From Natronorubrum halophilum (lineage in GTDB: Archaea > Halobacteriota > Halobacteria > Halobacteriales > Natrialbaceae), in contig NZ_QQTY01000005.1 in NCBI RefSeq assembly GCF_003670115.1, forward strand, positions 310,001 to 374,000: 64,000 bases of DNA, written 5' to 3'. The position numbers and the translations under genes are program-made. This document shows positions 18,992 through 20,330 of the stretch, piece after piece (the first letter of the stretch is position 1; each line of letters begins with the position of its first letter). Under the pieces are notes generated by a model. It did no database searches. It saw only the letters and a list, made by a program, of their open reading frames with translations, and was not told the origin of the DNA.

Positions 18992-19150
18992 TCAGTCTAT
19001 GCCGTATTCTTCGTCGAGATACGGGTCGTATCTTCGACCACAATTATCACATTCGTAGAATTGGATTCGCCATCCCGGCGTCGTATACCGGGCCGAGTAT
19101 GTCTCCCGTTTGTTACATCGAGGACAGATAGCTGGTGGGGAGGATATCAT
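18992..19150 (-). CDS. 52-residue zinc-ribbon protein
   Basis: An ORF too short for routine gene calling: MISSPPAICPRCNKRETYSA, then aromatic strand-forming residues, YECDNCGRRYDPYLDEE and a terminal Gly-Ile-Asp. Two CxxC knuckles (residues 9-12 and 34-37) separated by 21 residues define a zinc ribbon like those of TFIIB/RPB9-type or transcription factor S N-termini. ATG at 19150, TGA at 18992. Acidic C-terminus typical of haloarchaea. Function unknown. Confidence 0.65.
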   Translation of the reverse strand: MISSPPAICPRCNKRETYSARYTTPGWRIQFYECDNCGRRYDPYLDEEYGID

Positions 19151-19507
19151 AACTGTAGATGGTCGGACGAATCATGATAAGTTCGCTCCCTGTACTGAAT
19201 GAAGCGGTTCGTGAGAGGCTTTGTAGACCGTGAGGTTCCTCGGCGCATCACCCCGGTATCAGCACTGATGGAACGCTCGAGAGGGATCTATCGTGGATGG
19301 ACGATTCCGAGAGCGTGGCAGGGATACCCATAATATGGTCGGAAGCGAGTGAGTCCAAAACGAGGGGTCGGTGGGTGTTTTTACGAGGATGCGAATCCGA
19401 ACTGATGGCGACCACGGATACCGAGTACCGGACTATGGGTCACAGAACTGCCTCCGTTCACCCTCTATCTCGAATTCACCGGCCGCGTTCCCACATGTTA
19501 GCAATAG
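19151..19507. other. Intergenic, no gene seen
   Basis: About 360 bp with no supportable ORF on either strand; long frames here are Arg/Ser-rich shadows. It ends at the TATA box of the candidate RNA. Confidence 0.4.
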
Positions 19508-19513
19508 TTATAA
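19508..19513 (+). promoter_or_regulatory. TATA box for the candidate RNA
   Basis: TTATAA, about 27 bp upstream of the predicted 5' end of the structured region at about 19538. Confidence 0.45.
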
Positions 19514-19537
19514 GCCACGTTAGGTCAACAAATAGAA

Positions 19538-19680
19538 CGGAAGCCACACTCCACGAGAACAGGGGGGCATGTACGGAAATGCCCCGGGTGCTAGGACCAC
19601 CCGAGGCGTGGCTTCCAACCCGCGAGGGTTTGCAAGCCATGATTGCGTACATTCTACCGGGATATAAACATCCCGCACGC
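19538..19680 (+). ncRNA. Candidate structured non-coding RNA or 5' leader element
   Basis: Five strong helices can be paired by eye. GGAAGCCAC (19539-19547) pairs with GTGGCTTCC (19608-19616), 9 bp, closing a multiloop. Inside are GGGGCAT/ATGCCCC (19564-19570 with 19579-19585) and GGGTG/CACCC (19586-19590 with 19598-19602). Downstream are AACCC-GCGA-GGGTT (19617-19630, a GNRA tetraloop) and CGGGAT/ATCCCG (19658-19663 with 19670-19675). No ORF of note overlaps it. It ends about 60 nt before a small zinc-finger gene at 19737, so it could be an independent RNA or a cis-regulatory leader. I do not recognise it as RNase P, SRP RNA or a named riboswitch. Confidence 0.5.
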
Positions 19681-19736
19681 CAGTCGAACCACACCATCAA
19701 CGCACCGCCGTCTGCCACTCCTCCCGGGAGACCGCG

Positions 19737-19904
19737 ATGAGCGATGGCGACGACTCGAGCGCGGACGACTCGTCGCGGCCCGCCTGTCCCAACTGTGGCG
19801 AACCGATCGTCGTCGTGACCGTCACCGGGCCGCTCGAGGGCGTTGCCGCCCCCTGTGGCTGTCGGGTCCCGCCCGACGTAGCGACCGACTCGAGGACCGA
19901 GTGA
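19737..19904 (+). CDS. 55-residue CPxCG zinc-finger protein
   Basis: Starts MSDGDDSSADDSSRPACPNC with an acidic tail, then GEPIVVVTVTGPLEGVAAPC and GCR. The CPNCG and later CGC provide zinc ligands in the style of haloarchaeal small CPxCG proteins. A Shine-Dalgarno-like GGGAG sits 7 nt before the ATG, consistent with a 5' leader rather than a leaderless start; the structured RNA element lies upstream. Function unknown. Confidence 0.65.
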   Translation: MSDGDDSSADDSSRPACPNCGEPIVVVTVTGPLEGVAAPCGCRVPPDVATDSRTE

Positions 19905-20093: not shown

Positions 20094-20330
20094 TCAGTCG
20101 CCCGAACAGTAACCGGGAGTGCCGCCGTTCGGTGTCGCTCGAGACGCGCGGTGCGGACGCGAGGCGATCGTCGTCTCGCAGTCGGGGCAGGTGTAGATCT
20201 CGCGGTCGCAGCGCTGTCGAACGGTCCAGTCGCCGTCGATCTGGCTCTCGTGGCCACACTCGAAACAGTACAGCACCGTTTTGCTGAAGGGCGGATGGGT
20301 GGCGTTGGATGTGGAGGGAGTCATTATCAT
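20094..20330 (-). CDS. 78-residue zinc-ribbon protein
   Basis: Contains KTVLYCFECGHESQIDGDWT and CDREIYTCPDCETTIASR, two CxxC pairs (plus an intermediate Cys) forming a zinc ribbon, then a basic/Gly C-terminal tail. Two starts are possible: ATG at 20330 (Met-Ile-Met-Thr) or ATG at 20324. Member of the abundant haloarchaeal small zinc-protein class; role unknown. Confidence 0.7.
   Translation of the reverse strand: MIMTPSTSNATHPPFSKTVLYCFECGHESQIDGDWTVRQRCDREIYTCPDCETTIASRPHRASRATPNGGTPGYCSGD

Follow-up and report, generated by a model that had tools for sequence, protein, structure and literature searches.

We consider it reasonably probable that positions 19502-19904 of the window, i.e. of the whole 64,000 nucleotide stretch of DNA analysed here, form a single transcription unit composed of a promoter, a structured leader and two short reading frames (ORF1 and ORF2), with the leader acting as a cis-acting translational switch. 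Comparison with homologs indicates that the structured RNA is real, and its fold is undescribed. The original prediction, which placed a structured RNA of no known kind before a CPxCG gene, is supported in this respect, as no Rfam family matches and the covariation is strong.

Layout and fold of the leader RNA

The unit consists of the following features, all on the forward strand.

19502-19516, +: promoter CAATAGTTATAAG (family consensus CAGTAGATATAAG) with the TATA box TTATAAG at 19508-19514, kept in 142 family copies
19539-19616, +: P1 closing stem from folding, GGAAGCCAC (19539-19547) with GTGGCTTCC (19608-19616)
19549-19551 with 19603-19605, +: inner pairs CTC/GAG, counted with P1 (12 pairs in total)
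19564-19585, +: P2 hairpin, GGGGCAT (19564-19570) with ATGCCCC (19579-19585)
19586-19602, +: P3 hairpin, GGGTG (19586-19590), loop CTAGGAC (19591-19597), CACCC (19598-19602)
19617-19630, +: P4 hairpin, AACCC-GCGA-GGGTT
19634-19640, +: anti-P1 element AAGCCAT, complementary to GTGGCTT in the P1 3' strand and overlapping the first two bases of the ORF1 start codon
19639-19740, +: ORF1, 33 amino acids, MIAYILPGYKHPARQSNHTINAPPSATPPGRPR; begins right 3' of P4, and its TGA stop overlaps the ORF2 ATG; open frame and overlap conserved
19658-19675, +: P5 hairpin, CGGGAT (19658-19663), ATAAAC, ATCCCG (19670-19675), within the ORF1 coding sequence
19737-19904, +: ORF2, 55 amino acid CPxCG...PCGCR zinc-finger protein with invariant Cys pairs in 18 family members

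The predicted TATA box and all five named helices (19539-19675) were found in place, the latter by sequence check and folding. In the predicted fold P1 encloses P2 and P3 and is followed by P4, so that the structured 5' leader measures about 100 nt. On the opposite strand the unit is flanked by genes for two further small proteins with Cys pairs, at 18992-19150 (-) and 20094-20330 (-).

The folding energy of the stretch is modestly unusual, with z = -2.0 and 8 of 200 shuffles folding equally well. It is homology and covariation, not energy, that place the stretch far beyond chance. Among 57 homologs, found across haloarchaeal genomes, compensatory changes on both sides were found at 33 of the 35 pairs of P1 to P5: 11 of 12 pairs in P1 with its inner CTC/GAG pairs, 7 of 7 in P2, 4 of 5 in P3, 5 of 5 in P4, where 75% of the cells are paired, and 6 of 6 in P5. 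An earlier covariation count used 33 sequences. The 57-sequence alignment holds 381 double-change cells compared with 115 when shuffled; it was fitted to the model and leans its way, and the safeguard is a set of controls in which the structure was slid by shifting the partner by 1-3 columns, which gave 35-109 such cells. The P3 stem is almost invariant within the family and covaries outside it, for example as GGGCG/CGCCC, CCGAGTG/CACTCGG and CCGGCGTG/CACGCCGG.

A search of the window against Rfam gave best scores of 16-17.5 bits against family cut-offs of 45-52, hence no match above chance, and ten diverse homologous loci gave no Rfam match either. No tRNA or tmRNA was detected. We found no description of the RNA family in Rfam 15 or, in a partial literature search, in published work.

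ORF1, the competing helix and the proposed switch

The original prediction stated that no ORF explains the structured stretch and that it ends about 60 nt before the zinc-finger protein. The former is wrong for the 3' third, and the latter was not confirmed either, as P5 and also the supposed gap lie within the 33 codons of ORF1. We compared 116 anchored copies, 85 of which have a CxxC...CxC ORF2. In 79 of these 85 copies ORF1 has no stop before ORF2, and the other two frames are stopped in 70 and 84 copies. The ORF2 start overlaps the ORF1 stop in 78 of the 85 copies (ATGA/GTGA-type; CGATGA in the window), which is the arrangement expected of a termination-reinitiation pair. Relative to the ORF1 stop, ORF2 starts at -1 (53 copies), -5 (15), -8 (8), -11 (1) or -14 (1). 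Two copies (L004 and L142) carry an in-frame fusion of ORF1 and the zinc finger. A GGGAG sequence is present a few bases upstream of the zinc-finger gene, as would suit the predicted Shine-Dalgarno sequence, but it lies inside ORF1, where it would act in reinitiation.

The start of ORF1 has a coding-like pattern: codons 2-6 encode mostly hydrophobic residues, and the third position varies in codons 4-6. Over P5, in codons 8-14, the amino acids change (G/R, Y/H, H/R, P/L) and the base pairs are kept. From this codon pattern and the pair-preserving amino acid changes, ORF1 looks translated and P5 looks to be kept as RNA. The best model is that the zinc-finger ORF2 is expressed by termination-reinitiation after ORF1, and the two frames would then be coupled in vivo. 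A study of ATGA gene pairs (PMC6728339) reports strict coupling for 13 of the 14 pairs that it tested from Haloferax and Escherichia coli.

In 123 of 144 copies, 30-31 nt separate the TATA box from P1. With so constant a spacing, transcription probably starts at P1 or no more than a few bases away from it. Together with the covariation, this fixed promoter spacing gives the leader the conserved, structured 5' domain that is expected of a riboswitch.

The P1 3' strand, GUGGCUU, is also complementary to the AAGCCAU that lies before and over the ORF1 AUG. Both sides change together in diverged homologs, so that besides GGCUU/AAGCC there are GGGUU/AACCC, GGUCUU/AAGACC, GGCCUU/AAGGCC, GGCUG/CAGCC and UGUCU/AGACA. 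Cognate duplexes of the P1 3' strand and anti-P1 have a mean energy of -8.65 kcal/mol compared with -6.83 kcal/mol for permuted ones (sd 0.37; 33 distinct P1 strands), and none of 5,000 permutations was as good. A test of the competing helix across eight lineages gave p = 0.001. A column-wise count did not stand out clearly from shuffles in a set that was aligned less well, and some copies have GUUGCC before the AUG, which leaves about 5 bp for the competing helix. By the duplex comparison the competing helix covaries across the class, and the leader appears to be capable of covering or freeing the start codon.

We propose that with P1 closed (ON) the ORF1 start codon would be free, so that ribosomes could translate ORF1 and then reinitiate at the overlapping zinc-finger start. 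With P1 open (OFF), its 3' strand GUGGCUU would pair with AAGCCAU including part of the start codon, and both ORF1 and ORF2 would be silent. The OFF state would need a trigger, since P1 is the more stable state. Of this scheme, the compared sequences show the leader helices and the helix that competes with P1, ORF1 with its stop overlapping the ORF2 start, and the association with the downstream genes. The direction of switching, with P1 closed as ON and anti-P1 as OFF, is what we infer from them.

Energy modelling gives partial support for switching. In the window, the best fold of the leader (-46.8 kcal/mol) leaves the AUG unpaired; with the P1 5' strand blocked the fold is at -40.4 kcal/mol and the AUG is fully paired. 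Among 57 folded leaders, the AUG is free in 44 of the best folds, and in 19 of the 57 it is paired once the P1 5' strand is blocked. The greater stability of P1 and the free AUG in those 44 leaders would also fit a constitutive leader, in which P1 to P5 form a fixed, non-switching element for translation initiation or mRNA stability and bring ribosomes to ORF1 with no Shine-Dalgarno sequence, and the P5 hairpin just past the AUG would suit ribosome positioning. Such a leader leaves the covariation of the pre-AUG element with the P1 3' strand without explanation, and we hold it to be unlikely.

Downstream genes, copies and distribution

The genes behind the leader vary by lineage and comprise small zinc fingers, SWIM proteins and zinc ribbons with an integrase. 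Within the family the zinc-type product, where there is one, is either a CPxCG...PCGCR zinc finger or one of a second type, CYRCDR...CCPDC. At loci outside the family the leader stands before SWIM zinc fingers, before zinc ribbons that a phage-type integrase follows, or before a zinc protein with a RAMP-like protein behind it. A strict scan for zinc motifs was positive at 27 of 38 loci outside the family compared with 2 of 38 upstream controls. The ORF2 zinc finger had nothing above cut-off in Pfam and no match in NCBIfam. Judging from these neighbourhoods, the leader thus travels with zinc-binding genes that are often borne on plasmids or elements. With zinc-finger, SWIM, integrase or RAMP-like products downstream, it does not belong with the ribosomal-protein leaders.

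Several loci deserve separate mention. At five of them, on plasmids and elsewhere (L223, L248, L258, L263 and L289), the leader is followed by a protein with a zinc motif or a Tat signal and by one that is weakly RAMP-like (Pfam: PF03787, E = 5e-4 in L263), possibly a CRISPR-related operon; the homolog of the RAMP-like gene on Halobacterium pHSAL1 has no detectable leader. Four others (L218, L255, L256 and L275, the last being C4 in the N. halophilum genome) have a zinc-ribbon or other short ORF and then a phage-type integrase ORF. Haladaptatus plasmids such as NZ_CP085339.1 carry L246-like SWIM genes, at as many as 30 sites of a single plasmid, and the one copy that was checked has the leader. 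At L261:1590-2906 the leader precedes an ORF whose product has a Cys-pair motif at its N terminus, fused to an HNH nuclease that partly resembles IscB.

The downstream products are mostly small zinc-type proteins, which is a common RNA-binding type. The encoded protein might therefore bind its own leader and shut off translation as in ribosomal-protein leaders, which would be the same kind of switch with its trigger specified. One and the same core stands before at least four unrelated zinc folds (CPxCG, CYRCDR..CCPDC, SWIM and the zinc ribbon before integrases), and we regard such feedback as unlikely. Since the core is conserved before unrelated folds, a common cellular signal (a ligand, an ion or a host RNA-binding protein) seems likelier than feedback by the product of each gene. 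We also considered a zinc riboswitch. The downstream genes fit the zinc theme, yet there is no zinc transporter among those examined, and we do not claim one.

A DNA search found copies in 23 of 61 genomes, among them five dispersed copies in N. halophilum itself, and the match often includes the promoter. The covariance model R1, built from 29 copies, detected the RNA in 82 of 125 genomes from the taxonomic family of N. halophilum, with named loci in Halopiger, Halovivax, Natrinema, Natrialba, Halostagnicola, Natronorubrum and other genera. The second model R2, built on 33 diverse sequences, found ten copies in the N. halophilum genome and was positive in 159 of 391 halobacterial genomes (~40%) and 60 of 86 genera, a class-wide count with rough E-values that includes the weakest matches, which were inspected in part. 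Of the weak matches outside the family, most of those inspected were true homologs and shared the layout. As a negative control, 148 genomes from across the phylum were sampled, and all seven positives among them were haloarchaeal. Two weak R1 matches (L220 and L225) without convincing structure were dropped, and an exact-motif match in an Acidobacteria MAG (L099) does not match the model. A viral origin was rejected as well, as there was no phage record and the IMG/VR pattern matches were weak and partial, or absent, when compared with the model.

A subset of copies from Halopiger, Halovivax and Natrinema (L146, L093, L128, L076, L112, L154, L122 and L024) keeps the promoter, P1 to P5 and the ORF1 start without a zinc-finger ORF2. 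In this subset about 400 nt of downstream sequence are conserved, which may belong to a longer RNA. The P3 loop (19591-19597; 166 copies) is 6-7 nt long and varies among near-identical paralogs: L178 and L093 differ at 3 of 6 bases at 99% core identity, and two L024 copies differ at 6 of 6. In some copies the loop is identical despite diverged flanks. For this variable loop no fixed or regional partner in cis was detected, as complementarity was not in excess.

The copies without ORF2, their conserved downstream sequence, the loop differences between near-identical copies and the presence of an own promoter would suit an independent or processed trans-acting RNA that uses the P3 loop for recognition and carries the zinc-finger ORF as a passenger. 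Against this, most copies have an open ORF1 whose end lies on the ORF2 start, the two frames follow gaplessly, the start codon belongs to the conserved structure, and the scan in cis gave the loop no partner. We judge this reading quite improbable; it keeps some weight because of the one subset that lacks ORF2. The original prediction had named a cis-acting leader and an independent sRNA as its two options, and we favour the cis-acting leader because in most copies a small zinc-type ORF follows, coupled through ORF1, the spacing from TATA box to P1 is fixed and the start codon lies in the covarying competing helix.

Some genomes hold 24 or more copies, and there are tandem arrays and copies on megaplasmids. 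One such array (L196, G029:C1:1569000-1577000) has four copies at a spacing of 0.9-1.7 kb and adjoins an ACTAC microsatellite. In N. halophilum the copies L276 (C4) and L277 (C7) are identical in leader and flanks. The copy numbers, arrays, megaplasmids and sites before integrases could also come from a transposable or recombination-borne cassette with the RNA features as by-products, which is very improbable, as the covariation and conserved pairing need selection on RNA and the edges of the aligned copies are a promoter and a gene, with no obvious terminal repeats.

Comparison with known systems

Taking the cis-acting switch as the preferred reading, we suggest, as a tentative possibility only, that the copies make up a widespread haloarchaeal switch class. 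A single conserved leader RNA would respond to a common cellular signal, either a host protein or a ligand that might be zinc, and by way of its translated ORF would control up to dozens of genes in a genome, some for small zinc-binding proteins and some from mobile elements. For Haloferax volcanii, where 72% of the protein-coding transcripts lack a leader, control of translation through structured leaders has been called 'not typical in haloarchaea' (PMC4983044). That view would have to be revised for a leader family that occurs in about 40% of the halobacterial genomes sampled and reaches tens of copies in some of them. The family would also open a genetic route to small zinc-finger proteins, a group in which many members have no known function, and the competing helix and overlapping ORFs give clear testable predictions.

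In logic, though not in fold, the haloarchaeal leader resembles the B12 riboswitch of Mycobacterium tuberculosis ppe2 (PMC11260477), where a structured leader controls a short translated ORF that is required for the downstream gene through termination-reinitiation. There, the B12 ligand and the OFF switch were shown experimentally, whereas the fold described here is unrelated and belongs to a multicopy haloarchaeal family. The ATGA gene pairs of Haloferax volcanii have the identical type of stop/start overlap, but the available part of that source (PMC6728339) describes no conserved structured leader or competing helix over the first start codon. Archaeal ribosomal-protein leader candidates, such as the S15 leader of Halobacteria (PMC7247131), are likewise structured cis-regulatory leaders in haloarchaea, whereas the leader described here precedes no ribosomal-protein gene and matches no Rfam family. 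ORF2 is similar to the haloarchaeal C(P)XCG zinc-finger micro-proteins (PMC11241148, PMC6562870) in having one domain with two Cys pairs, but its family is distinct from them and has no Pfam or NCBIfam model, and in the literature consulted we found no structured leader or coupled upstream ORF for such proteins. Structured cis-regulatory leaders are thus known as such, and what is new here is a multicopy family, found in this study in haloarchaea only, with a coupled leader ORF and a zinc-type set of downstream genes.
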